From a virus: a DNA stretch of 25,052 nucleotides. The notes below the pieces were generated by a model. That model ran no database searches and was not told where the DNA came from. It saw only the letters and a list, made by a program, of their open reading frames with translations. The DNA lies in the IMG/VR virus record IMGVR_UViG_3300031758_000536, positions 1-25,052 of that record. One strand, given 5' to 3'. Below, in pieces: positions 3,946 to 24,208 of the stretch. A program made the position numbers and the translations under genes. How positions within the stretch are numbered: position 1 is the stretch's first letter; each line of letters begins with the position of its first letter.

Positions 3946-3969
3946 CTCCCTTGCGGAGATGTCAAAGGG

Positions 3970-4227: not shown

Positions 4228-5294
4228 GAGTTGGCCTGAGCGAGAAGGGTGCCCAAAATGTTCACGGTCGGCACATTCGCCAATCTCTCGGTGTTCAGAG
4301 CGTCCGTCTTAGCTTTCACCGCATCGATCTTGGTCGATTCGCTTGCGGCCATGCGGCTGGAGATTGCGGCGTCGATGCGGCCGAGTTCGGTGCCGAGTTC
4401 GGTGCGGACTGCACCGGCGACCGTGGAGGCCGATGGGGCCGAGGTCGTCGGGATGCTGTCTAGTTTTCCGCCGTTGCGCTCGAGGTCGGCGCGGACGGCG
4501 GCGACGAGCGAAACCTCGGAGAGGTTCGTGTTTCCGATTGCGCCCACGATTGCGTTCAGAACGGCTTGGCCGTCGGCTTCGTTGAGGAGCGAACCTTCGA
4601 CTGCGGTGGCAATCTGAGCCGCTGTGGGTGGGGTTGTCGGGGCAGTGTAGGACGCGGATGCGAGACGCGATGACACGGAGGCATCCAATCGACCCAACTC
4701 CACGGCCAGCTCGGTGCGGATGTCGGCCACGCTTGGGGCCGAGGTCGGCGCGGTGTAGCCGGAAGTGGCGAGGCGGCTGGACACGGTGGCGTCGAGATTG
4801 GCGAGCTTGGTCGAGTTGCTGTCCAGCTCCTGCCTGATTGCTGTGACCGTTGGAGCGGCGCTTGGTGCGGTGTAATCAGCGGCGGCGAGTCTGCTTGAGA
4901 TGTTTTGATCCACCCGGCCAAGCTCCACCGAAAGCTCGGTGCGGACCTGTGAGGCTATGGCGCTCGCGGAGGGCACCGTGGGGGCGTTGGTCAGGGTTGT
5001 CGTGGTGGCGCAGAGGGTGACATTGGCCACGGTGTCGCTGGCGGCGTTGAATGTGCTGGCGGGGACTTCGGCGGTGCCGCTCCAGACGATGCTGCCGCTG
5101 CCGACATTGGCTCCGGCGCTGCGGAATGCGAGTTGGTAGGTGCCAGCGCTGCCGGTCATGGTGCCGCTGTAGAATCCGGTGCTGCCGACCTCGGTGAGCG
5201 AAATGGCAGACCCGACGGCGGAGCCGGATTGGTAGGGTTGCGCGGTGACGGTGAGGCCCGAAGTGGGCAGGGCGATATTCAGTTCGTTGGCCAT
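4224..5294 (-). CDS. repeat-containing tail fibre protein
   Basis: A 356-residue protein. The N-terminal 90 residues look like a beta-sandwich (SLTEVGSTGFYSGTMTG, GTYQLAFRSAG). The rest is built from a degenerate repeat with the core (I/V)RTEL-VELGR-D--(V/I)SSRLA---YTAPT, seen three to four times, with spacer units such as DSNSTKLANLD and ERNGGKLDSIP. The VRTELG...LGRIDA...SSRM version recurs near the C-terminus. Such helical repeats separated by TAP hinges fit a trimeric fibre shaft. It follows the small 138-residue gene by 4 bp and immediately precedes lysis. Likely a fibre or fibre-attached structural protein; the receptor is unknown. Confidence 0.7.
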   Translation of the reverse strand: MANELNIALPTSGLTVTAQPYQSGSAVGSAISLTEVGSTGFYSGTMTGSAGTYQLAFRSAGANVGSGSIVWSGTAEVPASTFNAASDTVANVTLCATTTTLTNAPTVPSASAIASQVRTELSVELGRVDQNISSRLAAADYTAPSAAPTVTAIRQELDSNSTKLANLDATVSSRLATSGYTAPTSAPSVADIRTELAVELGRLDASVSSRLASASYTAPTTPPTAAQIATAVEGSLLNEADGQAVLNAIVGAIGNTNLSEVSLVAAVRADLERNGGKLDSIPTTSAPSASTVAGAVRTELGTELGRIDAAISSRMAASESTKIDAVKAKTDALNTERLANVPTVNILGTLLAQANS

Positions 5295-5298
5295 GGGA

Positions 5299-5715
5299 TT
5301 AGGAGTTTAGAGTGGTGAGTGTTTCGGTGAGTGTCTCTTCAAACGAATGCGGAGCGGCGGGCCAATCGGCGGACGCTGGGGCGAGGCCGGAGGCGATCAT
5401 GCCATCGAGCCAGGCTTGGACGGCGTTGAGCTTGGGGGAGGATTTCGCGGCGGCATCGAGGCGGAGTTTTTGGTAAAGGAGTGTGGTCGAGCGGTTGCCG
5501 CCGTAGCCTTGCGAGTCTGTCCACTCTTCGGCGGTGTAGATAGGTGCGGCAGGCGTGATCCACTCGCCGTTGCCCCATGTGGCGTCTTCGCTGGGCTTGG
5601 GCGGCAGCGGGGCGTAGTCGGCGGCTTTGGGGTTGCCGTTCGCGGCCCATGCGGCGAGGGTTTCGGGCGCGAGGGTGACGAGTTCGTTGGTCTGAATGTT
5701 GTAATAATTAGGCAT
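5299..5715 (-). CDS. putative fibre-associated or fibre-assembly protein
   Basis: A 138-residue protein beginning MPNYYNIQTNELVTLAP, an opening often found in small phage proteins next to receptor-binding genes. The middle contains a Trp-rich segment (ATWGNGEWI, YTAEEWTDSQGYGG), and the C-terminal half is helical (KLNAVQAWLDGMI) with a TETLTTLNS end. It overlaps the lectin-like gene by 8 bp and precedes the repeat fibre by 4 bp. Comparable small proteins act as tail-fibre assembly chaperones or caps, but no signature proves that. Confidence 0.55.
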   Translation of the reverse strand: MPNYYNIQTNELVTLAPETLAAWAANGNPKAADYAPLPPKPSEDATWGNGEWITPAAPIYTAEEWTDSQGYGGNRSTTLLYQKLRLDAAAKSSPKLNAVQAWLDGMIASGLAPASADWPAAPHSFEETLTETLTTLNS

Positions 5716-7336: not shown

Positions 7337-8254
7337 CTAGTAGCTGCCACCATCGATGACGCTCTCCATCGCGGAGATACGGCTTTCGTGGTCAGCGACA
7401 TCGGCCTCGACTTCGTCCAGGCGGCTGTCGGCGCTGGCGTTTTCGAGGGTGGTGATGCGGTTCGAGAGGCTGGTGTCGGCTGTCGCCCTGGTGGAGGCTT
7501 CGGCTGTGACCGAGTTTTGGACGCCGGTGATCGCTGAGGCGCGGGCTGTCTGCTCGCTGCTGATCGCGCTCTCACGAGCGGAGGTTTCGGCGGCGAGGTC
7601 GGTGCCGAGGTCAACGATGTCTTGCTCTGCTGCGGAGACACGAGTGGTCAGCGCGGTCGCTGCCGAAACGACGCCATCGATGCGCAGTCCCAACGCTGTG
7701 TCGTCGGCACCACGAGTGCTGATCTCGGAGGCGAGGGCGGCGTTGTTCGAGGTCACATAACCAGCGAAGGCTGTGTCGTTTGTGGAGTCTACGCTATTGA
7801 TGAGGGTGACGATTTCCGCGAAAGAATCGGCATTTGCTCCTGCGGCTGAGAGAATTGCGTCAACGCGATTTTTCTCGGTCGTGATCTTGCCGTCCAAAAC
7901 GGAGTCGGCTGAGGAACGAGCGGAAGCTTCCGAGGTGATCGCGGCAGCGCGGTCCGAAATCTCGGTTGCGAGGTTCGCAGCGATGACGCCTTCGGCTGCG
8001 GTGGCGCGGCTGATTTCGCTGTTGAGGTTCGAGGTCAGAGTCGAGTCGGCCGAGCTGCGGATCGAGGCTTCGGCTGCGACTGCATCGTTGACGAAGGTCT
8101 TTTTCGCAAAGACATGCTCGCCGCCGATTGGCAGAACGCCTTCGGCTGTTCCGATGAAGAAGGATTTGTTTGTTGTGTCGAACGCGATTTCGCCGACTTG
8201 AAGCGAGACCGGCGTGCCGGAACCGCGTTTGATTTTGAGGATGGGATTAGCCAT
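7337..8254 (-). CDS. coiled-coil tail fibre protein
   Basis: A 305-residue protein. The N-terminal 45 residues form the GEIA beta-hairpin attachment domain (LQVGEIAFDTTNKSFFIGT). Almost everything after residue 50 is a long coiled coil rich in Ala, Ser, Thr, Glu and Asp, with recurring (A/S)EASARSSADS-like units (ASIRSSADS, TSEASARSSADS, AEASTRATADT). The C-terminus is a regular heptad coil (LDEVEADVADHESRISAMES). This is the architecture of a trimeric fibre shaft. A C/A-rich leader without a Shine-Dalgarno site precedes its start. Confidence 0.75.
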   Translation of the reverse strand: MANPILKIKRGSGTPVSLQVGEIAFDTTNKSFFIGTAEGVLPIGGEHVFAKKTFVNDAVAAEASIRSSADSTLTSNLNSEISRATAAEGVIAANLATEISDRAAAITSEASARSSADSVLDGKITTEKNRVDAILSAAGANADSFAEIVTLINSVDSTNDTAFAGYVTSNNAALASEISTRGADDTALGLRIDGVVSAATALTTRVSAAEQDIVDLGTDLAAETSARESAISSEQTARASAITGVQNSVTAEASTRATADTSLSNRITTLENASADSRLDEVEADVADHESRISAMESVIDGGSY

Positions 8255-8302
8255 GGCTTTTTAGGTGGTGGTGGTTTGGGTTGGTGTTCGTGGGTGGGTG
8301 AT
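8255..8302 (-). promoter_or_regulatory. C/A-rich leader of the coiled-coil fibre gene
   Basis: The minus-strand leader reads as repeated CACCCACC, CCAACCCA and CCACCACCAC units and has no Shine-Dalgarno motif. It belongs to the leader pattern shared with capsid, tail tube, protease and tail-chaperone genes. Confidence 0.4.
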
Positions 8303-8304
8303 TG

Positions 8305-8532
8305 TCAAAAAGCACCGGCGTCGATGACCGGAATCATGAGCGCGTAGGCGGCTGCGGAGCTGCTCCAGCGGTAGGGCATGCCTTCGTCGAGGGCCATGTA
8401 GAGGCGGTCGGATTTTCCGATGCTTGGGAAGGCCGAGCGGGTTGGGTATTCGACGATGACGGAGGGGAGCGTGAGGTCGAAGGACGAGAGGTCGAGCGTC
8501 TGGGTGATGTTGCTCTCGGTGATTGTCGTCAT
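8305..8532 (-). CDS. small hypothetical protein between fibre genes
   Basis: A 75-residue protein with mixed strand and turn character (TQTLDLSSFDLTLPSVIVEY, DRLYMALDEGMPYRWSSSAA) and no membrane segment. It overlaps the stop of the 560-residue fibre by 4 bases and precedes the coiled-coil fibre. The motif GxPYRW/alanine with DRLYMA is similar to short segments at the ends of fibre proteins, where a small beta domain reports a parameter-like YRW motif. It may be a separated fibre tip or a fibre chaperone. Function unknown. Confidence 0.55.
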   Translation of the reverse strand: MTTITESNITQTLDLSSFDLTLPSVIVEYPTRSAFPSIGKSDRLYMALDEGMPYRWSSSAAAYALMIPVIDAGAF

Positions 8533-10211
8533 TGGAAGGAGAGGCTTTCCCGGTTAGCCCACGAGCCGGTGGCCGAGGCGGTTGAAAGCACGCGACCGGC
8601 GGCGTTGAGGGTGGTGCGTTTGATTGTCCAGGTGGTGGCGGTCTCGGGCAGGGCTGGCGCGACGGGGCGGTTTGCGTTGAGGAGGCGGCCGCTGTAGGTG
8701 GTGAGGCCGTCGAGGCTGGAGTCGAAGGCGAAGAGGTAGAGGGCCGGGTCGATGGGCGGCTGGACGGTGCGCAGGCCAAGGGCCGTGCAGGCGATCTGCG
8801 TGCCTGCGGCGGGCGGGGCGTCGAAGGTGATCGTGCCGCTGGCTTCGCTGACGGTGTAGTCGGTGACGGGTGTCTGCGTGACGCCGTTCAAGGCGACGAG
8901 GACATGCTCGGGGTCGTTGCCCGCGAGGCCGTCGATGGGAAAGGTGGTGGCGGTGCCGTCGCCGTAGCGGATCGTGGAGTTGATCGAGAGGCCGGGAGCC
9001 GAGGCGATGATGTAGGACGAGAGGCCGGTGATCTCGGTGGCGGCGTGCGTGTGGATCGCGTCGGCTTTTGAAAGATCGACCCACAATTTGAAGGCTGGCG
9101 AGGCGGCGGGGTCGAAGGCGGCCCAGTAGCTCGAGCCGGGGGGATATCCGGGGTTCGGCTCGCCGGTGCGGATGTAAAGCTCGCCGTTGTAGCTGACGAC
9201 TTGTCCGGGCCAGTAGTCCGCGCCGTTGTCGTAGGCGCCGCGATAGTCGGCGGCCTCGGGCTGGAGGGCGGTATCGGCGAGAGCACCTTGGGCGGCTGTG
9301 GCTTTGCCGTCGAGGGCGTCGGTGAGGCCGGTGACTTCGGAGATCGCGTGGGTGTGCGCGGAGGGAGCGAAGGTGGAGGGCTTGCCGGTTAGGCTGCTCC
9401 AATCGACGGGCGGGGAGACGGCGACGACGGCGCTGGCGAAGTCGGTGATGTCGGCGGCCGTGTGCGTGTGGGTGTCGAGTTGGGTCTGAAGGGTGCCGAT
9501 GCTGGCGGCTGCTTCCGCGATGCTGTCGAGCGCGGCGGGGTCGAGGTTCGCGGCCAGGTGGTCGATCCGCTGGCCGAGTGCGGTGTCTGCGGAAGTAAGG
9601 GCGGCGAGGTCGGCAGTCAGGCCGGTGATCTCGCCTTTGAGGTGTGTATGCGCAGTGGCTGGGAAGGTGGCGGGCTTGTTCAGCACGCTGTCCCAAGTCG
9701 GTGGCGGGGCGAGTTCCGCGATGGCCTGCGCCGTGCGGAGCGGAGTCATCCATTTCGCATTATCCGTTCCGGCTTCGGCTTCGGCTTGGGTGGCCTTGCC
9801 GTCGGGGATCGCGGCGGGCGTGGCTTCGTCTCCGGTGATGACGCTGTTTTGGAGTTCGACGGCTAGGGTGGCCGTTCGGTGGGCAGTGCTTGGCGCGCCC
9901 CAGCGGATCTCGAGGAGGGCGGAGATGCTGGCGGGGTTGGAAGAAAACGCGGCCTCGACGGGGATGGTATTTAAAACAAGTGTGGTCTCTCCCGGGGCCG
10001 CGTAAGCTAGGAAATTGGAATCGGAGAATTTGGCCTTGAGACCGACGGCGGCGGTGGTGCCTGCGGGGGGCGTGGCGACTGCGCCGTTCTCGACATACAC
10101 GACCTCGATGGGGAGCGTGTCGCGCCGTTTGAGGACGAGGCGGTCGAGCGCGACATTGCTCGCGGCGGACTTGACGAAGCGCCGGTTTTTGAGGTCGAGG
10201 AAAAGTTTCAT
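8529..10211 (-). CDS. long tail fibre/baseplate adhesin with HTH metal-site repeats and a carbohydrate-binding-like module
   Basis: A 560-residue fibre. Residues 1-130 form a beta-sandwich (MKLFLDLKNRRF start) resembling upper-baseplate (BppU-like) N-terminal domains. About 139-164 holds ATQAEAEAGTDNAKWMTPLR, a common fibre motif. The shaft carries four His-Thr-His sites (near 188, 248, 286, 387) each followed by a helix such as EITGL; in trimeric fibres these His pairs bind metal. Residues 323-366 (YDNGADYWPGQVVSYNGELY then W) look like a CBM5/12-type chitin-binding module. The C-terminal 60 residues are shared with the 122-residue protein. It is a paralogue of the 309-residue protein upstream, pointing to duplication in the adhesion module. 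Confidence 0.8.
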   Translation of the reverse strand: MKLFLDLKNRRFVKSAASNVALDRLVLKRRDTLPIEVVYVENGAVATPPAGTTAAVGLKAKFSDSNFLAYAAPGETTLVLNTIPVEAAFSSNPASISALLEIRWGAPSTAHRTATLAVELQNSVITGDEATPAAIPDGKATQAEAEAGTDNAKWMTPLRTAQAIAELAPPPTWDSVLNKPATFPATAHTHLKGEITGLTADLAALTSADTALGQRIDHLAANLDPAALDSIAEAAASIGTLQTQLDTHTHTAADITDFASAVVAVSPPVDWSSLTGKPSTFAPSAHTHAISEVTGLTDALDGKATAAQGALADTALQPEAADYRGAYDNGADYWPGQVVSYNGELYIRTGEPNPGYPPGSSYWAAFDPAASPAFKLWVDLSKADAIHTHAATEITGLSSYIIASAPGLSINSTIRYGDGTATTFPIDGLAGNDPEHVLVALNGVTQTPVTDYTVSEASGTITFDAPPAAGTQIACTALGLRTVQPPIDPALYLFAFDSSLDGLTTYSGRLLNANRPVAPALPETATTWTIKRTTLNAAGRVLSTASATGSWANRESLSFQ

Positions 10212-10283
10212 GCCGCTACGCGAGCGGCGGGTGTCAAATCACTCGGGCTTCCGAGTGGCTTCGGGAGCGGGTGGGAGCGGATT

Positions 10284-13641: not shown

Positions 13642-14340
13642 TTATGAGGGGCAATTTGTTATTTGGTAAAATGATCCAAAGCTTACATAAGGCACAGCTT
13701 GATAAATAACTTCTGTTTCTTTTACTGCTCCAAATACATTCTTTTTGATGTTCACCAACCTTTTTTCTATAATAATATTTGAGTCAAAAACCCCACTATA
13801 TAGTGACGGACTTACGCTTGGCTCAATGGAACCGATGTTTATCGAAACTGGAAGTTGCGTTCCGTTTGTATAAAAAGCTTTTAGAGTTGGCGAGCCTGGG
13901 ATTGTGTCTCCAATTTGTGCGATGTGAACGGTCTCTAAAATTACACTAATATTACGAACGACCGGAGTAATTGCTAAGATGCTGCCGCAGGGCTTGCCTT
14001 CGCCGCAACCATCAAGCATGGTGCATTTATCAATCAGTCTAAATGTAATAACTAATTCCCCCAATTCGTAGCCGAATGTGCTTGCCGAGGCGTTCGCATC
14101 CCACACGCCATAGCCGGTGGCGTTGATGCGCTCGAAGCCGTCCGTGCCGACGCTGACGGTCGGCTCGGGCCAGACATCGACATCGCCGATGCTGGTCTCA
14201 ATGACGTCGGGAAGGTCGGTATTCCCGACGGGGCGGATGAATTCGGCCGAAACATTGAAAAGGCCGCTTTTGAATTTCTGCTCGGTCTTGGACTGCAATA
14301 AAGGCCACTGGGAACTAGAGGCTGAATAAACGGTGGGCAT
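13642..14340 (-). CDS. tail-tip associated protein of unknown family
   Basis: A 232-residue protein immediately after the tape measure, the position of distal tail proteins in siphoviruses. It opens YSASSSQWPLLQSKTEQKF and is largely beta, with a Cys-containing turn (KCTMLDGCGEGKPC, about 110-123). The downstream half of the gene (about 13642-14060) is AT-rich while the start is GC-rich, a compositional break inside one gene. I cannot assign it to the Dit family by sequence; its position is the main argument. Confidence 0.6.
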   Translation of the reverse strand: MPTVYSASSSQWPLLQSKTEQKFKSGLFNVSAEFIRPVGNTDLPDVIETSIGDVDVWPEPTVSVGTDGFERINATGYGVWDANASASTFGYELGELVITFRLIDKCTMLDGCGEGKPCGSILAITPVVRNISVILETVHIAQIGDTIPGSPTLKAFYTNGTQLPVSINIGSIEPSVSPSLYSGVFDSNIIIEKRLVNIKKNVFGAVKETEVIYQAVPYVSFGSFYQITNCPS

Positions 14341-14342
14341 GG

Positions 14343-16811
14343 CTAGGCGAGGGCGTGGGTGGGGAGTTTATTGGAAAGCGTGGTCATCGTGGTTTTGATT
14401 TCGCCGAGCAAGCCTTTGAGATCGCCGAGGATTTTGGTGCCTTCGCCGGTGGTGATGGCGAGGTCGATGTTTTCCTTGAGCTTGCCTTTGATGGACTCGA
14501 TGGATTTCGAGGCGTCGAGGTTGAGGGTTTGCTGGGTAGAGCCGAGCTTAGTGATTTCGGCCTGGATATTTTGCAGGGAGTTCTTGCCGCCTTTTTCGTC
14601 AATCGGCTGAATGCCGGTGAGCTCGCCGCGCTTGCTGGCGATGTAGTCGAGGATTTGCTGCATCTGCTCGCTGCCGGTGGTGCCGAGGTTTTTAATGCCG
14701 AGCTCGCGGGCGATGTCGGGGAAGGATTTGTTTTTGAGGTCGGTGCCGATGTATTCGCCGAAGGCGGTGATTTCCTTGCGGGCATCGGCGGTCTTCTCTT
14801 TGAGGCTTTTCACGGGCGCGGAGGGATCCACGCCTTTGATGTAATCCAGCCAGGTGGCGAAGGACTTGGCGGCCTCGGCGGCTTTGCTGGCCTCGGCTTT
14901 GGCTTCGGAGACGGTCGTCTTGTCCACCTTCACGGCAGCGGCGGCGTTTTTGGCGTTGACGAAATTCGTGGCGAGGACTCCGGCTTCTTCTTTGGTGACG
15001 CCGAGGGTTTTCACATAGTCGTCGGTGAGCTTGGCGATCTCCTCGGTCGCCTTCTTGCGCTCAAGGTCTTTTTCGAGGGAGGCCACGAGTTCGGTGTTGC
15101 CTGCGGCTTTGGCAGCGTTTAGCTGGGTCTCGAGCTCGATGATGGCGGTCTTATTGGCTTTGGCTTCGGCGTCTGCGGCGGCTTGCTGGTCTTTGAGTGC
15201 TTGGCGTTTTTTAAGCTCGTCCTCGGTCTGCTTGGCTTGTGTCGCGCGCTCGGCGGTGGTGGCTGCGGTCGCGGCGGTGACTTGGCCCTCGAGTTCGGCA
15301 ACTTTGTTTTGCTGGGCGCCGAGGTCGGCGAAGAGAGGGGGGATTTTGGCGTAGTTCTCGGAGAAGGAATCCGGAAGGGCTTTGCCAGCGTTCACAAATT
15401 GCTCAGCGATGCGGCCGCCTGCGCCGGTCATGCTTTCCGAGATTTTGTCGGCAGCGCGCTTGGATTCTTCAGCAGCGGCGCGGAGATTGTCCGAGATGCC
15501 CTGCGTAAGCATGTTTCCCGATAGGGCGTCGGCGAGTTTGGATTGAATGGTCTCGGCGATGCGCGCTCCCAAAAGATTAAAGCCGTCCAAAACGGTCGAA
15601 ATGAGAGCGCCAGATGGCGAAAAAATTTCGGCGAGAAATTGACCGGCGGATTGAAAAGCGGCGATCAGTCTTTTGTAAATCTCATCGGCTGTCTGCATCG
15701 CCTGGAGTTTGAGGCTTTCCCAAAACACCTCGAAGGCGAGGCCGACTTGGCCGATGGAGATGGCATCCACCGCAGCTTGGAATCCTTTCATGGCGTCCTG
15801 CCCGCCGAGGAAGGCGTCGGCGAGGTTTTGGCCGATGGCGGCGGCGTCGATGCGCGAGAGGGCGCTGGTTATGGCGTCGATGGCAGGGAGTGCTTTGTCG
15901 AGGATGCCGGCGGCGAAGTCGCGGACCTTCTGCTGAATGATGAGAAAACGGTCGCCTACGGCGTCGAAGACATTGGCGCGGCGGTCCATGATGTCGGCCA
16001 TGGAGCCGACGGTGGCGCGGGCCTCGTTCATTTCGCCCGAGAAATTGGTGAGGAGCGGGAGGAGTTCCGCGCCGGATTTGCCGAAGACATCGATGGCGGT
16101 GGCGGCGCGTTTGCTGGGGTCTTGGATGCCGGAGATGCCGGAGGCGACGAGGGCAAGTTGCTCGGTGGGAGTCTTCCCTGCGAGTTCATCCATGGAGAGG
16201 CCCATGCGGCCAAAGGCGGCGACGGCTTCCTTGCTGCCTTCGCCTGCGCCGAAGATGTTGTTTTGGAGCTTGGCAATCGCGGGACCGACTTTGTCCGCAC
16301 CCGCGCCGGTATTGTCGAAGGCGCGCTGGAGAAGGAGGAGATTGCCGGCCGACTCGCCGGTGGAGGCGGATAGGTCGGAGAGGGTGCCGCCGAGGTCGAG
16401 GGCGTCGGTGAATCCTTGGATCGTGCCACGCACGGCGGCGAATCCGGCATCGAGCACGGCGGTGAAGGCTTTAGCGGCGAGTTGACCGACGCCGACAGCG
16501 GCGGCGAGTTTGCCGAAGCCAAGCCCGGCTTGGTCGCCCATTTTCTCGCTCTTGTCGCCCGCGCCTTTGATGTCTTTGCCGAGGGCGTCGACCTTCGGCG
16601 ATGCGGCTCCGGATTGGTCGCCCATGGCTTTGAGGCGTTTCTCCATGTTCTCGACCTGGCCGATGCGTTTCATCGTGGCCTCGAGTTCTTCCATGGAAAG
16701 CTCGCCGCTTTTGACCTTCCCCTGAAGGTTGCCCATCTCGCCTTGGATTTGCTGGAGGGCTTTCTCCAGCCCGACATCCTGTGCTCCGAATTCTACTGAG
16801 ACATCTGCCAT
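14343..16811 (-). CDS. tail tape measure protein
   Basis: An 822-residue protein, the longest in the window. It shows the tape-measure pattern: an N-terminal coiled coil (DVGLEKALQQIQGEMGNLQGK), a hydrophobic region (about 100-135, KLAAAVGVGQLAAKAF), the conserved-type core around DLSASTGESAGNLLLLQRAF and FGRMGLSMDELAGKTPTEQL, and a long Ala/Glu/Lys coiled-coil region (about 500-640, including a DELKKRQALKDQQAAADAEA segment). It sets tail length; at about 1.5 Angstrom per residue the tail would be near 120 nm (estimate). AGGAGG lies 12 bp before the start. It follows the 281-residue gene with a 4-bp gap. Confidence 0.9.
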   Translation of the reverse strand: MADVSVEFGAQDVGLEKALQQIQGEMGNLQGKVKSGELSMEELEATMKRIGQVENMEKRLKAMGDQSGAASPKVDALGKDIKGAGDKSEKMGDQAGLGFGKLAAAVGVGQLAAKAFTAVLDAGFAAVRGTIQGFTDALDLGGTLSDLSASTGESAGNLLLLQRAFDNTGAGADKVGPAIAKLQNNIFGAGEGSKEAVAAFGRMGLSMDELAGKTPTEQLALVASGISGIQDPSKRAATAIDVFGKSGAELLPLLTNFSGEMNEARATVGSMADIMDRRANVFDAVGDRFLIIQQKVRDFAAGILDKALPAIDAITSALSRIDAAAIGQNLADAFLGGQDAMKGFQAAVDAISIGQVGLAFEVFWESLKLQAMQTADEIYKRLIAAFQSAGQFLAEIFSPSGALISTVLDGFNLLGARIAETIQSKLADALSGNMLTQGISDNLRAAAEESKRAADKISESMTGAGGRIAEQFVNAGKALPDSFSENYAKIPPLFADLGAQQNKVAELEGQVTAATAATTAERATQAKQTEDELKKRQALKDQQAAADAEAKANKTAIIELETQLNAAKAAGNTELVASLEKDLERKKATEEIAKLTDDYVKTLGVTKEEAGVLATNFVNAKNAAAAVKVDKTTVSEAKAEASKAAEAAKSFATWLDYIKGVDPSAPVKSLKEKTADARKEITAFGEYIGTDLKNKSFPDIARELGIKNLGTTGSEQMQQILDYIASKRGELTGIQPIDEKGGKNSLQNIQAEITKLGSTQQTLNLDASKSIESIKGKLKENIDLAITTGEGTKILGDLKGLLGEIKTTMTTLSNKLPTHALA

Positions 16812-17661: not shown

Positions 17662-18274
17662 CAGGTGATTTTTGCGAATGCGGCGTCTATGGCAGCGAGG
17701 GAGTCAAAATCCACCTTTCGGGAGTTTCGGGTCCAGGCGCGCTTGCGGCCGTGTGCGGCGTCGTCGGCGTGGATGATTTGGAGCCCTGCGGCGAAAGGGA
17801 GGTCTTCGAGGATTTCGCGGTAGCCCCAGCCGGTGGTCTTAGCGATGCGGTAAACATAGCCTGCGAGCCAGCCGGGGCCGTTTAGTTTCCCCCTGCGGAC
17901 TTTCCGCCGTGGGTCTCGGAGAAGCTGGCGAAGTATTCGTTCGTGCGCTCGAGGCAGAGCTTTTGGAGTTCGGCGATCTCGGAGGAGGTGGGGTTTTGTT
18001 TTTCCATCCAATCGTCCACGGCAGCAACGAAGCGGGCGTGGTCGTTTACGGTTGATCGGACCGAGGCTTTGGGTGCGCTGTGGATGAAGGCGAAGCCGCC
18101 GGATCGCCAGAGGATGTCCATGTCGGGGCTGAGGATTTTGTTGCGCTGCATCCAGGAGATTTCGAGCGCGGCGGTTGGTCGCATCTCCCAGCGGGAGAGT
18201 TTTTGCGGGCCGCTGGTCATGGCTTGCTCGCGCAGGGCTTCGTCGTCGGTCAGGAGGTCGTTGGTGTCTGTCAT
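17661..18274 (-). CDS. tail assembly chaperone, -1 frameshift product (gpGT-like)
   Basis: Shifting one base back at GGGAAAC (17885-17891) near the end of the 130-residue frame joins it to a 74-codon extension ending at 17661. That gives a 204-residue fusion, like lambda gpG-T. The extension LNGPGWLAGYVYRIAKTTGW then REILEDLPFAAGLQI is protein-like and closed by a stop coupled to the next gene. The extension has no start of its own between the shift site and its stop that would make sense as a gene. Such products carry tape measure protein to the tail tube and are not in the mature particle. Lambda's site is GGGAAAG. Confidence 0.8.
17823..17891 (-). other. programmed -1 ribosomal frameshift site
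   Basis: The minus-strand heptamer G GGA AAC (17885-17891) fits X XXY YYZ, with the zero-frame stop TAA immediately after. A short hairpin (GCGGA-AAG-TCCGC) lies just upstream. Downstream, GCCCCGGC (17871-17878) can pair with GCTGGGGC (17823-17830) through eight base pairs, a possible stimulatory stem. The pairing is by eye only. Confidence 0.75.
17882..18274 (-). CDS. tail assembly chaperone, short form (gpG-like)
   Basis: A 130-residue protein located between tail tube and tape measure, the standard place for the tail chaperone. It is mainly helical (TNDLLTDDEALREQAMTSG, TSSEIAELQKLCLERTNEYF) with a WMQRNKILSPDMDILW segment. It terminates at TAA directly after the slippery heptamer. The short form is the main product of such genes and acts with the frameshifted form during tail assembly. 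It is preceded by a C/A-rich leader with no Shine-Dalgarno site. Sequence similarity to named families is not evident; position plus shift site are the evidence. Confidence 0.78.
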   Translation of the reverse strand: MTDTNDLLTDDEALREQAMTSGPQKLSRWEMRPTAALEISWMQRNKILSPDMDILWRSGGFAFIHSAPKASVRSTVNDHARFVAAVDDWMEKQNPTSSEIAELQKLCLERTNEYFASFSETHGGKSAGGN

Positions 18275-18301
18275 GTGTTTGTCGTTTGGGTTGGTTGGTT
18301 A
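18275..18301 (-). promoter_or_regulatory. C/A-rich leader of the tail chaperone gene
   Basis: The minus-strand leader reads AACCAACCAACCCAAACGAC and ends ACACATG with no Shine-Dalgarno motif. It belongs to the recurrent CCAACC leader pattern before abundant structural genes. Confidence 0.4.
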
Positions 18302-18700
18302 GAGAAATTTGGCGAAGCGCTTCTTGTCTTCGTCGGTGGCGTTTTCGGAGATGCTCACGATCTTGCCGTTTCGCTCGAAAACGATCTGGCGGGGGATGGC
18401 TTTGATCGCGGTGAGGAGCTGGTCGCGGTTGCGCAGGGCGGCGATCATGTAGGACACGGGGGACTCTGGATTTTTTTCAATGAAATCCTCGCTGGCGAAG
18501 GCGCGCATGACTTCATCGGCTTGTTGGCCGGTGGTGGGGTGCGAGGCTTTGAAGTGGAAGACGGTGGACTCGTCGCCGCTCTCGCGCTTGATGCGAGTCG
18601 CGGGGGCTTTGTCGCTCTCGAACTCAAAGCCGAGGGCCGTGAGGATGCTGGCGAGCTTCAGGTCGCGCGTGTTGAAAATGGCGATATGTCGTGTGGTCAT
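18299..18700 (-). CDS. small tail-module protein of unknown family
   Basis: A 133-residue protein between the tail tube and the chaperone. It begins TTRHIAIFNTRDLKLASILTAL, with a charged middle (IKRESGDESTVFHFKAS) that looks like beta strands, and a helical second half (QQADEVMRAFASEDFIEKN, RNRDQLLTAIKAIP) ending KKRFAKFL. No motif identifies it. Given the position it may be a tail terminator partner, another chaperone or a non-virion regulator of tail assembly. Confidence 0.55.
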   Translation of the reverse strand: MTTRHIAIFNTRDLKLASILTALGFEFESDKAPATRIKRESGDESTVFHFKASHPTTGQQADEVMRAFASEDFIEKNPESPVSYMIAALRNRDQLLTAIKAIPRQIVFERNGKIVSISENATDEDKKRFAKFL

Positions 18701-18715
18701 TTCTCGTGGGGTGCG

Positions 18716-18745
18716 GCCGGGGAGCCGCTAGGCGACTACCCCGGC
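18716..18745 (-). other. very stable hairpin after the tail tube gene
   Basis: GCCGGGG-T-AGTCGC closes on the loop CTA with GCGGCT-CCCCGGC, a 13-bp stem with one bulged base and one wobble pair. No T-run follows on either strand, so it is not a classic terminator. Placed just 15 bp after the tail tube stop, it may protect the 3' end of an abundant message or act in processing. Confidence 0.5.
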
Positions 18746-18759
18746 GCGGCGGGTTGGGA

Positions 18760-19128
18760 TTAAGCGGCGGTCATCGCGGTGCCGTAGCTACGGAGCGTCG
18801 CGGAGACGGTCTCGAACTGCTCGGCCGCGAAGCTGGTTTCCAGCGAGGTGCAGATGGTCGTGCTGCCGAGGGAGGTTCCGGCGGGCATCGTGATCGAGGC
18901 GGTGCCGCCAACGGTCAGAGAAAAGCTGCCGGTGCGCATGCCTTCGACGCTGACCTCTTGGATCGGCTCGCCTACTGCCACCGCCACCACGCTACCCTGT
19001 GAGTCCTTAACTTCCTGAACATCGGCTGATTCCGAAATCGAAAAGCCGGTGACGATGAGGCCGGAAACTTCCGGTGTTCCATAAGTGGCCGAAGAGACGG
19101 CCGATGAGCGATAGATTGAAGCTGCCAT
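18760..19128 (-). CDS. major tail tube-like protein
   Basis: A 122-residue, mainly beta protein in the position of the major tail tube protein (after connectors, before the chaperone and tape measure). Features include IVTGFSISESADVQEVKDSQG, VGEPIQEVSVEGMRTGSFSL then a GTASITMPAGTSLGSTTICTS stretch, and a short helix. It is shorter than many tube proteins but fits small tube subunits. It has a C/A-rich leader and a very stable hairpin after the stop, both fitting high expression. Assignment is by position, size and secondary-structure look. Confidence 0.65.
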   Translation of the reverse strand: MAASIYRSSAVSSATYGTPEVSGLIVTGFSISESADVQEVKDSQGSVVAVAVGEPIQEVSVEGMRTGSFSLTVGGTASITMPAGTSLGSTTICTSLETSFAAEQFETVSATLRSYGTAMTAA

Positions 19129-19162
19129 GATTTTGAGTTGGTTGGGTTGGGTTGCGGGTTAC
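19129..19162 (-). promoter_or_regulatory. C/A-rich leader of the tail tube gene
   Basis: Minus-strand AACCCGCAACCCAACCCAAC followed by CAACTCAAAATC before the ATG. It has no Shine-Dalgarno motif. The CCAACC units repeat the pattern seen before the capsid and protease genes. Confidence 0.45.
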
Positions 19163-19178
19163 GGGAGAGGAGCGGGTG

Positions 19179-19574
19179 TCAAATCGCAGCGAGGCCGAGG
19201 GTGAGTTGAGCGGTGCAGAGCCAACGGTCGTCGGTCTGGGATTCGGTGAAGGTCTGGAGGTCGGCGCCGAGGAGCGTGGCGGTGGGGGCGAAGGCGTTGG
19301 CGAGGGCCGTTGCGGCGTAGAGGGACGAGCGGAGGGAATCGACGAGCTGGCGGTGCTGCTCGAGGTCTTGGGTGGATGGCGTCGAGAGGAGGATCGCGGC
19401 GGTGGCTTTGTGGAGCGTGGTGCTCATGGCCTCGACGGACTCGCAGGCGCAAATGATGGAGGGCGCGTCGCCGGGGATTTCGGCGTTGCTTTGGCCGGTG
19501 TGGATGGCGATGCCGTCGAAGGCGGGGAGGTTTTGCAGCCAGGTGGCGAGGGATTGCTCGACGGCGAGGTTCAC
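19179..19574 (-). CDS. putative tail completion / neck protein
   Basis: A 131-residue protein starting at GTG 19574, overlapping the stop of the 106-residue gene (GTGA). The N-terminal helix and strand (VEQSLATWLQNLPAFDGIAI, DAPSIICACESVEAMS) and central AILLSTPSTQDLEQH then LVDSLRSSL resemble tail terminator or completion proteins (gpU- or gp10-like), which have this size and place between the head-tail connector and tail tube. Similarity is by pattern, not a clear family match. The stop lies in a TTTGACAC motif. Confidence 0.6.
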   Translation of the reverse strand: MNLAVEQSLATWLQNLPAFDGIAIHTGQSNAEIPGDAPSIICACESVEAMSTTLHKATAAILLSTPSTQDLEQHRQLVDSLRSSLYAATALANAFAPTATLLGADLQTFTESQTDDRWLCTAQLTLGLAAI

Positions 19575-19891
19575 AGGCGACCTCCTGGGGCGATGGTGAC
19601 GATGTGCTCGGCGTCGCTGGTGGATTCGGCGATGTCGCGGATCGTGTAGGAGCGGCCGCGATAGGTGATGGCCTCGCCGCGCTGGGGCGGGGTGGCGAGG
19701 TCAGCGGCGAGAAGGTGGCAGCGGAATTGACCGCCTTGGGTGAGGCCGCCGGTGGCGAGATCGAGCGAGATGGCGACGGGGGCGAGGACGACGCGGAGGG
19801 TTTGACCACGGAAGCCGACTTCGACGCCGTGCGCGGAGTTGGCGACTCGGACGGATTGGTTTCGGAAAGCGGAAATCGCGGCGGCGGTCAC
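19571..19891 (-). CDS. head-tail joining protein (gpFII-like)
   Basis: A 106-residue protein starting at GTG 19891. It is mostly beta: SVRVANSAHGVEVGFRGQTLRV, an LDLATGGLTQGGQFRCHLLAAD segment, and TPPQRGEAITYRGRSYTIRD then AEHIVTIAP. The pattern of a short N-terminal helix, then a small barrel with a GEAITYRGRSYTI hairpin, resembles lambda gpFII-type head-tail joining proteins. It sits just after the terminator at 19909 and before the tail completion gene, as expected. Confidence 0.65.
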   Translation of the reverse strand: MTAAAISAFRNQSVRVANSAHGVEVGFRGQTLRVVLAPVAISLDLATGGLTQGGQFRCHLLAADLATPPQRGEAITYRGRSYTIRDIAESTSDAEHIVTIAPGGRL

Positions 19892-19908
19892 GCTGTTCGG
19901 GGAGTGTC

Positions 19909-19949
19909 AAAAAGCAGAACGCCCCGCCGGAGTGAGACGGCGAGGCGTT
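19909..19949 (-). terminator. Rho-independent terminator after the head genes
   Basis: On the minus strand AACGCCTCGCCG (19938-19949) pairs with CGGCGGGGCGTT (19918-19929) over 12 bp with one wobble; the loop is TCTCACTC, and CTGCTTTTTG follows. It lies between the 80-residue gene and the head-tail joining gene. It may lower transcription of connector and tail genes relative to capsid. Confidence 0.75.
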
Positions 19950-19984
19950 TGCGGGCTGGCGCGGGGAATCGCGCGGGTAGCGGG

Positions 19985-20227
19985 TTATTTCTTCTTTGGC
20001 TTTGGTGACTCTTGCTCCGGCTCGGCGATGACGGCGGGGGCGCTGGCTTTTTTGGCGTGGCGCTTGAGCGTGTCACCGAGGCTGACGACGAGGGTTTCGT
20101 CGGCAGTGAACTCGCCGGCGACTTGCTTGGCTTTGAAGTCGGCGAGTTGGTCGGCGAGCGGGACGCTCGGCAGGTGTGTGACCTGCCAATCGTTGCCGAT
20201 GCGGTTGAGTGTGAGGCCGAGGCGCAT
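19985..20227 (-). CDS. small protein following the major capsid gene
   Basis: An 80-residue protein, 5 bp after the capsid stop. The N-terminus is strand-like (RLGLTLNRIGNDWQVTHLPS), then LADQLADFKAKQVAGEFTAD as a helix, then VVSLGDTLKRHAK; the C-terminus is a Lys/Pro/Glu tail ending KPKKK. Position and size suit a capsid-associated, decoration-like or head-completion protein. No family recognised. A terminator follows its stop after about 36 bp. Confidence 0.55.
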   Translation of the reverse strand: MRLGLTLNRIGNDWQVTHLPSVPLADQLADFKAKQVAGEFTADETLVVSLGDTLKRHAKKASAPAVIAEPEQESPKPKKK

Positions 20228-20232
20228 CAGGC

Positions 20233-21138
20233 TTAGGCGCTGACGATGCGCTTGAGGGCGGCGGCGTGGCCGAGGGCGAAGCCGTAGTTGACTTCGATGA
20301 CTGATTTCTCAGTGTCGGTGTCGGGATCGCCCCATGAGCGGTATTCGATGGAGAGACCAGTCTCGGGATCGACTGCCACTTCGTAAGCAGTGAGGTTGTT
20401 GCGGACGCCGGGGCTTGGCTGCACGGGCGAAAAGGCGACCAAGATCGCCTCGGGGAGTGCGACCATACCGACGAGGTTTTCGCTGTTGCCGGGGATGAGG
20501 TTGGTGCCGACGACATCGAAGCCAGCGATCTGTGGCAGGCGGCCGTTTTGGATGGCGGATGCGCTGCCGACTGCGGCGGCGTTTTTGATGCCGGAATCCT
20601 TGAGGAGCGCGCCTTCATAGGCGTTGTCGAGGATCATGACGCGGCTGGATTTTGGCCATTTGGCAACATCGAGCGCGGTCTTGATGGTGATCATGTCGTC
20701 CGAATCAAACGCGGAGGCTGCGCCGGTGTGGATCGCTGCGCCGTAGTTGGCGAGGGTGACGACCGAAAGAACATCACGGAGGATGTCTTCGGCGAGCTTG
20801 CGGCCTTTCAAGAAGCCCAACTGTTCAGGATTGAAGTAGGGCTGGCGGGCGAGTTCCGAGCTAGTGAAGCTCAGCGCTTGATACTTGCGCTTATTGACCG
20901 TGATCTCGCGGCTGTTGATGGCGTTTGTGTCGCCGAAAGAATAAGTGCCGTTGAAGTCGCTCGTCGCGTCAGTGGCGAGAGGGTAGAACGGAACGCTGAT
21001 CTTGTCGGTGCCTTGGAGCGGAACGCTGTTGTAGACAGTCGAGAAGGAGTTGAGCGGGAGAAGCGCCTCACGCAGTGCGACGAGCGCAGAGTCGAGGACG
21101 ACATTCAGTTTGAGTTCGGATGAGATGGTTGTGGCCAT
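20233..21138 (-). CDS. major capsid protein (HK97 fold)
   Basis: A 301-residue protein with the order and motifs of HK97-fold coat proteins of the P22-like group. The N-terminal helix (LNVVLDSALVALREALLPL), a long flexible part (VPFYPLATDATSDFNG), then LAEDILRDVLSVVTLANYGA, the spine helix segment around MITIKTALDVAKWPKSSRVMILD, and the C-terminal AFSPVQPSPGVRNNLTAYEV and ATDPETG-like strand segment (VAVDPETGLSIEYRSWGDPD). It follows the protease/scaffold by 53 bp and has a C/A-rich leader. It builds the icosahedral head. Confidence 0.88.
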   Translation of the reverse strand: MATTISSELKLNVVLDSALVALREALLPLNSFSTVYNSVPLQGTDKISVPFYPLATDATSDFNGTYSFGDTNAINSREITVNKRKYQALSFTSSELARQPYFNPEQLGFLKGRKLAEDILRDVLSVVTLANYGAAIHTGAASAFDSDDMITIKTALDVAKWPKSSRVMILDNAYEGALLKDSGIKNAAAVGSASAIQNGRLPQIAGFDVVGTNLIPGNSENLVGMVALPEAILVAFSPVQPSPGVRNNLTAYEVAVDPETGLSIEYRSWGDPDTDTEKSVIEVNYGFALGHAAALKRIVSA

Positions 21139-21176
21139 TTGAGTGGGTGGTTTGGTGGGTTAGGTTTTGGGTTTCG
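21139..21176 (-). promoter_or_regulatory. C/A-rich leader of the capsid gene
   Basis: Minus strand CCTAACCCACCAAACCACCC followed by ACTCAA and the ATG. No purine-rich Shine-Dalgarno motif precedes this start, although the capsid must be the most translated phage protein. The CCAACC/CCCACC style is shared with four other leaders here. Confidence 0.5.
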
Positions 21177-21191
21177 TGGATTGCGTGGGTG

Positions 21192-21779
21192 TCAAATCGC
21201 GGCGGTCTTGGCGTGGGCTTCGAGGGCTTTGCGGTTCGCTCGGAAAATGCGGGTCTTCTCGGCTCCGGTGGCGTTGCGCCATTGGTCGTAGATGCTCGAG
21301 GGGTTGGCGGACTGATCGATTTCGGGAACGACGCGGGCGGCGGAGAGGCCGAAGGAGCGTTGCAACCGGCCGAGGTCTTCGCGGTCTTGAGCGAGTTCGC
21401 TGCGGAGGGTTTCGACTTCGCTGTTGAGAGCTTCAAATTTCGCGCGGTAGGCGGTGGCTTCAGCGAGGGCGGCGTCGCGATCGGCGATTGCGCCGTTGAA
21501 TTTGGCGAGGATGCTGTCAGCGGCGGAGACTTTGGCTTGAGGCTCGGCAGCATACTCTTCGTCGCCTTCTTTAGTTGCCTCTTCAGTGGTCTCCTCTTCG
21601 GGAGCACTCATCGCGGTGGCCATGGATTGCAGGCGCTCGGCGAGGGTGGATTTGCTTTCTTCGTCTAGTTCGGCGGATTTGGTTTCGACTTCGTCAAGGG
21701 AAGCCAGAATTTCAACGAGCAAGGGGGTCGGTTCGTTTTCGACTTTTTCGGTTTCGGTTTTTTCGGTTTCGGGATCCAT
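21192..21779 (-). CDS. possible nested internal-start scaffold protein (Nu3-like)
   Basis: Within the head protease gene an in-frame ATG at 21779 (residue 201) begins DPETEKTETEKVENEPTPLL, exactly where the protease domain ends and the helical region starts. AAGG lies 8 bp before it, and an internal copy of the TTTGACAC motif lies 20 bp upstream. A product from here would be 195 residues, acidic, coiled-coil rich (RLQSMATAMS, SEVETLRSELAQDREDLGRL) and scaffold-like. Lambda makes its scaffold Nu3 from such a nested start in the protease gene C. Translation from this start is inferred. Confidence 0.5.
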   Translation of the reverse strand: MDPETEKTETEKVENEPTPLLVEILASLDEVETKSAELDEESKSTLAERLQSMATAMSAPEEETTEEATKEGDEEYAAEPQAKVSAADSILAKFNGAIADRDAALAEATAYRAKFEALNSEVETLRSELAQDREDLGRLQRSFGLSAARVVPEIDQSANPSSIYDQWRNATGAEKTRIFRANRKALEAHAKTAAI

Positions 21780-22379
21780 AGATTTTGCCTTTGCGAAGGT
21801 GTCAAATCGGGCGCGGAGACTTTCCGGCGTGGCGGTGGCTGCGGCGGCTACGCCTTCCTCGATGGCGTCGGCGAATCCGAGGGCCACGGCTTCGACGGCG
21901 TCGAGCCATGTTTCCTCGTCCATCATTTGGGCGATGCGGTCGGCCTCCATGCCGGTCTTGCGGACATAGGCGTTGCGGAGGGAGTCTTTGAGTTTGTCGA
22001 GAAGAGCGGCTTCGCGGCGGAGCTGGTCCGAGTCGCCCATAGAGACGGTCCACGGATTGTGAATCATCAAAAGGGCGTTGTCGGCGATGTAGACGGGGGC
22101 GCCTGCCATGGCGATGACGCTGGCCATCGAAGCGGCGAGGGCGTCGATGTGGACGGTCAGCCCGCCTTTGTGCCGGCGGAGGGCGTTGTAAATGGCCGTT
22201 CCCTCAACCACGGACCCACCGGGCGAGTTGATGCGGAGGTGGAGATGTTGGCCGTCGAGCTTGCCGAGGTCGGCGAGGAACTCTTTTGAGCCTGAGCCGA
22301 AAGCACCGACCTCATCGTAGAGGTGAATCGTTGCTTCGCCGTTGTCGGATTTTTCCAGTGCATAGAATTTTTTGTTCAT
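21192..22379 (-). CDS. ClpP-type head maturation protease with C-terminal scaffold region
   Basis: A 395-residue protein. The N-terminal 180 residues form a ClpP/SppA-like serine protease: LRINSPGGSV (48-57), nucleophile S84 in ALAASMASV, H107 in MIHNPW, and a third acidic residue somewhat downstream (unassigned). Residues 201-395 are an acidic helical region with coiled coils, like the scaffold part of lambda gpC/Nu3 or of HK97-type delta domains. The protease cleaves scaffold during prohead maturation. ATG 22379 overlaps the portal stop (ATGA) and gives the normal start of the family; a longer frame to 22751 is antisense to portal coding and is rejected. Confidence 0.87.
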   Translation of the reverse strand: MNKKFYALEKSDNGEATIHLYDEVGAFGSGSKEFLADLGKLDGQHLHLRINSPGGSVVEGTAIYNALRRHKGGLTVHIDALAASMASVIAMAGAPVYIADNALLMIHNPWTVSMGDSDQLRREAALLDKLKDSLRNAYVRKTGMEADRIAQMMDEETWLDAVEAVALGFADAIEEGVAAAATATPESLRARFDTFAKAKSMDPETEKTETEKVENEPTPLLVEILASLDEVETKSAELDEESKSTLAERLQSMATAMSAPEEETTEEATKEGDEEYAAEPQAKVSAADSILAKFNGAIADRDAALAEATAYRAKFEALNSEVETLRSELAQDREDLGRLQRSFGLSAARVVPEIDQSANPSSIYDQWRNATGAEKTRIFRANRKALEAHAKTAAI

Positions 22380-23884
22380 GAGTTTTGTTGGGTGGGTTGA
22401 GTGGGTGCGCCGTCTTCCTCGTCGTCGCTGGATTCGGCGGGCTGTTGCGCGGCGAGGCCGCTGCGGAGGGAGTTCGGGAAGACCTGCGAGACATCGAGGC
22501 CGAGGGCTTCGCATTTTTGTTTGCGGCGGAGATAGGTCTCGATGACATCCGCCTCCTCTTCCTCGGCGCGGAGGCCGAGCATGTTGAAATAGCGGGTCGG
22601 CGACAGGTGGCCTTTGTCGAGTTGCTCGCTGAAGGCGCGGGCGTCGCGGCCGCTGTCCACCGTGATCTTTTTCGGTGCGAGCCATTCGTGGCGCCACCAA
22701 TCGTCGCCGGGGTATTCCAGACGACCGGCTTGCATTTCGTGCCAGAGCCAATACTTGTAAAAGGGTCGGCAGAACTGATCGATGACCTGTTGCTGAAGGC
22801 GCTCGAGGAAGTTCTGCGTGACCTCCAAAACGGCGCGTTGCTCGGTGCCTGCGAGGCCGACATTGACCATCATGGCCTCGGGCGGCAGGCCGACGGCGAA
22901 GGCGACATCGGAGCGGAGCGCGCGCATGACGGCTTCGTAGGTCTGGCCGGGAATGTCGTTCTTAAAGGCTTCGAGCTTTTCGCCTGGCTTGAGGCGTGGG
23001 AGGAGGATGCCGTTCGGGAGGTCGCTGGTTTGGAGGTCGCCGACTTCGTTGGTCGTGGATTTCAAGCCAGCGCCGAGGCCGATCTTGGCGACCTCGGTGC
23101 TGGTAACCATGTAGCCGATTTGCGCCCCGGCCTTATACGCTCCCTTCACAAATGAGTTGATTTCGGAGATGTCGCGGAGGTTGGAGACGGCGGAGTGGAA
23201 CCACGAAACGCCGCGCGGCTGGGCGTGGCGGCGGATGTGGCGGAAATGGAGGATGTCTTCGGCGGGAATACGAGTGCCGTTTTCAGCGTTGACGGTGTAG
23301 GCGACGGGCGCGCCGAAGCGGTCCATCGAAACGCCGTCGTGCGTCATGTCGTCCGGGTTGCCGTAGCCTGCCGAGCCGCCGATGGACTCACCGCCGATGA
23401 AGCGCACGCGGGCCGCGCCTTCTTTGGTCTTGAGGAATTGCGCGAAGAAATCGCCGTCGATGGCGACCTGGCGGAGGATGAGGCTTTGCGCGGTGTAGAA
23501 ATTAACCTGTGCGCCGGCATCGAATGCCCATGCCTCGGCGCAGTTCCGATCCTCAAAATACTGATCAACCTTTTTGTTCCAGGCTAAGTTCGAGGTTTTG
23601 GGTTGGACGACGATGCCGGTGCCGATGGCGCGTTGGGCGAGGTGCTCGACGATGTAAGTTGCCTGCGCGGCGTTGTTGTAGAGCCACCGCGAGAGGCGGA
23701 GGATTTCAAGTCGGGTGTGTGCCGTGAGTTCGCGCTTGGGATCGGTGGTCGGAACCCAGATGAGGCCGCGATTCAGCGAGGGCTGGGCGGCTTCAAAGGC
23801 GGCGGCTTTTGCGTCTGGCTTGCGCGGGCGGCCTGCTCCGGGGCGGGTTCCACCCCAACTTGATTTTTTGATTTTCGACGGCAC
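22376..23884 (-). CDS. phage portal protein (lambda gpB family)
   Basis: A 502-residue lambda-family portal, the 12-fold ring at the head vertex through which DNA enters and leaves. Typical segments are LEILRLSRWLYNNAAQATYI, GTGIVVQPKT, LILRQVAIDGDFFAQFL, GYGNPDDMTHDGVSMDRFG then PVAYTV, ILHFRHIRRHAQPRGVSWF, and VGLPPEAMMVNVGLAGTEQR. The start is GTG 23884 with no Shine-Dalgarno site, 15 bp after the gpW-like stop. The first 20 residues contain GGTRPGAGRPRKPD, an AT-hook-like basic segment usually found at the N-terminus of small terminases and not typical of portals. The C-terminus is acidic and Gln/Pro-rich. Confidence 0.9.
   Translation of the reverse strand: MPSKIKKSSWGGTRPGAGRPRKPDAKAAAFEAAQPSLNRGLIWVPTTDPKRELTAHTRLEILRLSRWLYNNAAQATYIVEHLAQRAIGTGIVVQPKTSNLAWNKKVDQYFEDRNCAEAWAFDAGAQVNFYTAQSLILRQVAIDGDFFAQFLKTKEGAARVRFIGGESIGGSAGYGNPDDMTHDGVSMDRFGAPVAYTVNAENGTRIPAEDILHFRHIRRHAQPRGVSWFHSAVSNLRDISEINSFVKGAYKAGAQIGYMVTSTEVAKIGLGAGLKSTTNEVGDLQTSDLPNGILLPRLKPGEKLEAFKNDIPGQTYEAVMRALRSDVAFAVGLPPEAMMVNVGLAGTEQRAVLEVTQNFLERLQQQVIDQFCRPFYKYWLWHEMQAGRLEYPGDDWWRHEWLAPKKITVDSGRDARAFSEQLDKGHLSPTRYFNMLGLRAEEEEADVIETYLRRKQKCEALGLDVSQVFPNSLRSGLAAQQPAESSDDEEDGAPTQPTQQNS
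22380..22402 (-). promoter_or_regulatory. C/A-rich leader of the head protease gene
   Basis: Minus strand ACCCACCCAACAAAACTC before the overlapping ATGA. These bases also encode the PTQPTQQNS tail of the portal. No Shine-Dalgarno motif is present; another example of the leader pattern. Confidence 0.4.
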
Positions 23885-23899
23885 GCCGAGGCGGGCGTG

Positions 23900-24172
23900 T
23901 CAAACGGCGGTGCCGTATCTGCTGCGGTCAGCGATGGCGAAAAGCTGGCGACCGTTCGGGCCTTCGCTGAGGATGTCTTCGATGGCTTCGAGGAGGAGCC
24001 ACTTGGGCATCGTGACCTGGCCGGATGAGGATGTTCCTTCGGTGCCGATGGAGGTAATCGTGACCTCCTCGGTGGCGCTGGCGAAGGTTGACGCGGCGAG
24101 GGCTTCCAGCTCCACCGTGGTCTTCGTGCGGCGGAGGAATGATTTGATGCCGGAAAGTTTTAGGGACTCCAT
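23900..24172 (-). CDS. gpW-like head-tail joining protein
   Basis: A 90-residue protein just before the portal, where lambda-like phages carry gpW. The N-terminal helices (MESLKLSGIKSFLRRTKTTV, ELEALAASTFASATEE) are followed by a short beta hairpin (VTITSIGTEGTSSSGQVTM) and a C-terminal helix (KWLLLEAIEDILSEG). This matches the helix-hairpin-helix layout of gpW, which completes the head and binds the tail. The match is by layout and position. The stop lies in a TTTGACAC motif and no clear ribosome-binding site precedes its ATG. Confidence 0.6.
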   Translation of the reverse strand: MESLKLSGIKSFLRRTKTTVELEALAASTFASATEEVTITSIGTEGTSSSGQVTMPKWLLLEAIEDILSEGPNGRQLFAIADRSRYGTAV

Positions 24173-24208
24173 GCCCGTGTGGGCGGAGTCAAACGCTGGG
24201 GCTTATCC

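Follow-up and report, generated by a model that had tools for sequence, protein, structure and literature searches.

Translation initiation without a Shine-Dalgarno (SD) site is known from Bacteroidetes, in which the 5′ untranslated region is unstructured and binding by ribosomal protein S1 has been proposed (PMC3155529). Akkermansia and another member of the Verrucomicrobia have been reported to be scarce in SD sites with CCUCC conserved (PMC10783764), and ACA- or CA-rich translational enhancers have been described for the enteric genes yifK, dppA, and gltI (PMC3879156). In this study, an IMG/VR virus record of 25,052 bases (IMGVR_UViG_3300031758_000536; this whole stretch is referred to as the window), which carries nearly every gene on the minus strand, was analyzed for the C/A-rich, G-poor leaders that precede its major capsid gene, its probable tail tube gene, and several others. 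These leaders probably serve host and virus alike as SD-independent, unstructured ribosome entry regions of strongly expressed genes.

Similar to Bacteroidetes (PMC3155529), the system described here shows no excess of SD sites at starts although the anti-SD is intact, has an unfolded region before the start codon, and has S1 as the proposed binder. Different from Bacteroidetes, whose leaders drop in GC, the phage leaders remain rich in C, with G (and largely T too) avoided, in a genome of 58% GC; no GC drop upstream of the start was found in the phage C/A leaders, in which G is specifically depleted; in addition, the strongest forms here occur at highly expressed and virion genes. The SD-scarce Verrucomicrobia (PMC10783764) belong to the same phylum and share the scarcity of SD sites and the conserved anti-SD; the main text of that report, as far as it was searched, does not mention A-rich, C-rich, or CA-rich leaders and does not describe their use by phages. 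The enteric enhancers (PMC3879156) likewise place CA-rich RNA near the start, where it raises translation and S1 has been suggested to take part, but they work together with an SD site and need ACA, whereas the C/A-led genes here have no SD site and ACA is depleted in their leaders (5 observed versus 16.3 expected in the window and 75 versus 112 in the host). Non-SD genes with reduced structure at the start (PMC5397173) are also comparable in that a composition bias prevents folding near the initiation codon, although the bias here is a near-complete exclusion of G over 35–50 nt that is conserved at specific phage genes.

An initial annotation of the window had listed five such leaders on the minus strand, each ending at a start codon. 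All five are present there, and two further leaders absent from that list (the last two below) were identified:

21139–21190, minus strand: leader of the major capsid gene, rich in C/A and poor in G (ATG at 21138; 33 of 35 nt are C/A, none G)
19129–19177, minus strand: C/A-rich leader of the tail tube gene (start 19128; 2 G, 30 C/A), with 75% identity to the capsid leader over 55 nt
18275–18314, minus strand: C/A-rich leader of gene 17882–18274 (1 G, 29 C/A; no TTTGAC)
22380–22413, minus strand: C/A-rich leader of the head protease gene (start 22379), within the 3′ coding end of the portal gene, which ends ...DGAPTQPTQQNS
8255–8303, minus strand: C/A-rich leader of gene 7337–8254 (start 8254; 2 G, 32 C/A)
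14341–14374, minus strand: C/A-rich leader of gene 13642–14340
5295–5339, minus strand: C/A-rich leader of gene 4224–5294, overlapping the end of the upstream gene

The genes behind these leaders, together with the portal gene, are as follows:

20233–21138, minus strand: major capsid protein, HK97-like (PHROG 283, E 1.5e-22)
21192–22379, minus strand: head maturation protease, ClpP-type (PHROG 94, E 4e-76)
22376–23884, minus strand: portal gene with a GTG start (PHROGs)
18760–19128, minus strand: probable tail tube protein (position; AlphaFold model and Foldseek)
17882–18274, minus strand: possible tail assembly protein, a name based solely on its position
7337–8254, minus strand: possible fibre-like protein, with weak PHROGs matches to families of unknown function only
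13642–14340, minus strand: C/A-led gene
4224–5294, minus strand: C/A-led gene

The capsid, protease, and portal identities proposed initially thus agree with PHROGs, and the tail tube protein is probable from its position and from a low-confidence AlphaFold model (pLDDT 63), whose top Foldseek matches consist almost entirely of tube proteins and tube-like proteins of the baseplate and neck (best E 0.016, none below 0.001). The "tail chaperone" (start 18274) and the "fibre" (start 8254) have no convincing family match; gene 17882–18274 matched nothing in PHROGs or Pfam. Upstream of two other genes of the window, 14343–16811 and 19179–19574, there are AGGAGG-like sites, in contrast to the C/A-led genes.

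With starts taken from computational calls and a C/A tract defined as a 35-nt window containing 28 or more A+C and no more than 3 G, nine tracts were found on the coding strand of the window and none on the opposite strand. Seven of the nine adjoin a start codon and the other two lie inside coding sequence. This strict definition holds for 5 of 27 called starts and for 4 of 22,487 background positions (p ~1e-14). Consistent with the initial annotation, no SD-like site precedes any of its five genes (0/5), and the leaders are unstructured: the mean minimum free energy is −0.9 kcal/mol for C/A leaders, compared with −7.6 at other starts and −11.4 at internal ATGs. The overlap of the protease leader with the portal coding end, also noted initially, is reflected in the last 12 portal codons, whose third positions are free of G (compared with 22% G in the portal body), and a like composition is found before the protease start in several relatives.

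Related capsids were identified at 75 IMG/VR loci and in three Verrucomicrobia metagenome-assembled genomes (MAGs). Among 39 distinct relatives, the capsid leaders retain 0–2 G per 35 nt while varying in sequence and length, and even a capsid family at just 33–36% identity has an A/C-rich leader without an SD site. It is therefore the composition of the leader, and not its sequence, that is conserved, and the order of bases within it seems to matter little. Across 72 phage contigs, C/A-rich sequence precedes 18.6% of starts and 0.2% of internal ATGs; the count against controls that the initial annotation had proposed for phage and host is thus favorable on the phage side and, as described below, on the host side.

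The repeated CCAACC and AACC units on which the initial annotation had focused do exist, and both exceed mononucleotide shuffles in the window leaders, but their signal is mostly explained by composition and genome background: AACC is preferred over CACA genome-wide, at a ratio of about 1.3–2.1 outside leaders. A sequence-specific CCAACC code was rejected on this ground. Nor do the data favor the sequence-specific CCAACC regulator that had been suggested, as the leaders diverge freely within their C/A composition and unrelated host housekeeping genes share the signature.

The three MAGs, which carry prophages related to the window virus, were taken as hosts (G001–G003; the MAGs are bins). Starts were called with a purpose-written gene caller, which exactly recovered 26 annotated starts among 34 calls in 50 kb of E. 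coli and, as a positive control, found SD-like sites before 44% of E. coli starts versus 5% of internal ATGs. The same caller found SD-like sites before 6–11% of host starts and 11–12% of host internal ATGs. SD sites are thus not enriched in the host, since they are no commoner at starts than at internal ATGs while the caller does detect them in E. coli. The 16S of the G003 bin has an intact anti-SD (GGATCACCTCCTTT) and ends in GGATCACCTCCTTTC, and an S1 with six domains is present in the host. Twenty strict C/A-rich leaders were found in the host (1–3% of starts), about half of which belong to highly expressed gene types; the genes they precede include EF-Tu, GAPDH (in two genomes), RpoC, S3, S8, S15, triosephosphate isomerase, three microcompartment shell genes, and ClpP. 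Because the host places leaders of this kind before certain genes that rank among its most expressed, these leaders are probably the way in which this lineage achieves strong SD-free initiation. The absence of SD enrichment in the host, the like leaders on several of its most expressed gene types, and the unfolded, composition-conserved phage leaders support the SD-independent translation suggested initially. In relatives of G001, the mean number of G per 35-nt leader is 4.4 for EF-Tu, 2.7 for GAPDH, and 5.3 for rpsB, versus G-rich leaders at uvrB (11.8) and recN (10.1), and codon adaptation correlates with leader C/A content in four genomes (Spearman 0.26–0.57). At most of the EF-Tu loci of relatives (L191–L206), a conserved tRNA-like 3′ end (GGTCATGGGCTCCA) is followed by a C/A-rich leader of ~30–40 nt and then by EF-Tu.

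Mechanistically, 30–50 nt of nearly G-free C/A sequence would prevent the mRNA from folding ahead of the start codon in a GC-rich genome (~58% GC), where coding mRNA would otherwise fold. An unfolded leader could allow the 30S subunit to load without anti-SD pairing, probably held by S1, which we infer to be the binder of the leaders, and such loading would raise translation. The Verrucomicrobia host would use this SD-free mode, and the phage would use an extreme form of it for its high-copy virion proteins (capsid and tail tube) and several neighbors.

Several observations weigh against this interpretation. In the window, SD-like 4-mers occur before the tape-measure-like gene (14343–16811), before 19179–19574, and before the called start at 5926, and the 16S comes from one bin (G003) only. 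Strict C/A-rich leaders are scarce in the host, and some of them precede genes without known high expression. Of the genes compared in relatives of G001, uvrB and recN are SOS genes and therefore imperfect low-expression controls, and part of the rpsB starts are mis-assigned by the nearest-ATG rule. In several more distant relatives, the EF-Tu leader is SD-like, which indicates that the leader mode changes within the group. The link between codon adaptation and leader C/A content, strong in raw form, is modest or weak after control for gene composition (partial correlation 0.14–0.20 in three of four genomes and none in the fourth). C/A-rich leaders are also missing from many ribosomal-operon genes of G001, G002, and G012, so that such a leader is not needed for strong expression; starts of this kind may depend on translational coupling. 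Finally, three C/A leaders sit behind the hexamer TTTGAC, and therefore transcription could also be involved.

As a separate observation, the uvrB and recN loci (L356–L405) contain GATACT/CATACT-like boxes 10–20 nt before the ATG, which may act as promoters for mRNAs with a very short leader.

TTTGAC(A) is a phage-specific element that was overlooked in the initial annotation. Among deduplicated phage starts, 32% have it in the 90 nt upstream, compared with 1.6% of internal ATGs and ~2% of host starts; it is not a signal of host genes. Two spacing classes were identified. In the first, a distance of exactly 20 or 21 nt separates TTTGAC from the start codon, which is often GTG, and the genes are small connector-like, terminase-small-like (helix-turn-helix), portal, and head-closure genes. 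In the second, found at capsid, tail tube, and fibre-like genes, the distance is 33–61 nt and is taken up by the C/A leader; in 19 of 21 cases, the upstream gene has the TGA of the motif as its stop codon. A few genes have a spacing of 26–28 nt. The sites in the window, with the genes they precede, are:

21191–21196, minus strand: TTTGAC before the capsid leader, including the TGA stop of the protease gene
19178–19183, minus strand: TTTGAC before the tail tube leader, including the stop of the upstream gene
8304–8309, minus strand: TTTGAC before the leader of gene 7337–8254
23899–23904, minus strand: TTTGAC exactly 20 nt from the GTG of the portal gene (22376–23884)
24188–24193, minus strand: TTTGAC 21 nt from the ATG of gene 23900–24172 (minus strand)
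19906–19911, minus strand: TTTGAC exactly 20 nt from the GTG of the head-closure-like gene 19571–19891 (minus strand), directly following a terminator-like hairpin
19949–19918, minus strand: 12-bp intrinsic-terminator-like hairpin with a T-run, directly upstream of that TTTGAC and of the head-closure-like gene
10233–10238, minus strand: TTTGAC 27 nt from the ATG of gene 8529–10211 (minus strand)
3961–3966, minus strand: TTTGAC

The arrangement of a hairpin followed by TTTGAC at head-closure genes recurs in many relatives and clades. Among the possible roles of TTTGAC, that of a phage promoter or processing signal is the likeliest. A sigma-70 promoter was rejected: no TATAAT-like −10 element was found 16–18 nt from TTGACA at the TTTGACA sites, the total of sigma-70-like sites is not above shuffles, and the position logos show no −10. 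A hairpin at the start codon after TTTGAC exceeds shuffles slightly in stability (Wilcoxon p 0.011) and was dropped as a candidate, with no covariation in 42 sequences. No match to a phage single-subunit RNA polymerase was found in 12 phage records, which are possibly fragments and in which the controls were unmatched too, and no paper linking TTTGAC to promoters and phages was found in a literature search.

Speculatively, the two spacing classes might set the stoichiometry of virion proteins. The 20–21 nt class before low-copy head and connector genes (small terminase-like, portal, joiner-like, and head closure) could yield leaderless or start-occluded, weakly translated mRNAs, the 33–61 nt class before capsid, tail tube, and fibre-like genes could provide a G-free C/A leader for strong SD-independent translation, and TTTGAC could be a new single-block late promoter or RNA processing site. 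We regard this extension as tentative and on balance doubtful.

The same element underlies the strongest alternative to ribosome entry, namely that TTTGAC(A) and the region downstream set the starts of phage transcripts and that the C/A run is merely the initially transcribed region. The frequency of TTTGAC before phage starts relative to controls and host starts, its fixed spacings, and the terminator-like hairpin that in many clades immediately precedes it at the head-closure gene would all fit such a role. However, the leaders of the protease and of the genes starting at 18274, 14340, and 5294 are C/A-rich though free of TTTGAC, which makes the two features separable; the host EF-Tu and GAPDH leaders are likewise C/A-rich and TTTGAC-free, and many TTTGAC starts have no C/A leader. 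We therefore consider this explanation unlikely. Rho-utilization (rut) sites that impose polarity between late genes are very improbable: C-rich, G-poor, unstructured RNA is indeed the type on which Rho loads, but the tracts end at the start codons of genes needed in large amounts, their length of 35–60 nt is short for rut, and the host has such tracts before EF-Tu and GAPDH.

A role of CCAACC as an alternative SD was also considered, in which it would pair with the GGUUGG that lies beside the anti-SD, on the 3′ strand of 16S helix 45. GGUUGG is a conserved 16S sequence of which CCAACC is the exact complement, the complementary strand of the G003 16S was seen, and the excess of CCAACC and AACC over mononucleotide shuffles would agree with pairing. 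Against dinucleotide shuffles, however, the duplex energies of the window leaders are not beyond expectation (z 0.3) and those of the host C/A leaders are marginal (z −2.0); the preference for AACC over CACA is also genome background, and helix 45 is paired in the mature 30S. This pairing was rejected and has scarcely any probability. Equally far-fetched is a target of a GU-rich small RNA or RNA-binding regulator: GcvB does act on CA-rich sequences at enteric ribosome binding sites (PMC3879156), but ACA, the enhancer motif of its targets, is depleted in the C/A leaders, the leader sequences diverge, and unrelated host housekeeping genes are preceded by the same composition.

Under the reading of the leaders as ribosome entry regions, the window offers a concrete case in which an SD-scarce, GC-rich lineage may mark its strong starts by excluding G and not by lowering GC. 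This bears on how start sites and expression are modeled in Verrucomicrobia and their viruses, as SD-based models may mis-start such genes. The C/A leaders are candidate strong leaders for genetic tools, and the phage-specific TTTGAC with its two spacings represents a directly testable signal for the control of late phage genes.

Two further genes of the window were identified with PHROGs:

14343–16811, minus strand: tape-measure-like gene
344–1372: integrase

ARAGORN called no whole tRNA at ~1455–1510 on the minus strand, beside the integrase gene, where the sequence resembles the 3′ half of a tRNA (GGTCACGAGTTCGAGTCTCGTCATCGGCTCC) and is possibly the remnant of an attachment site.

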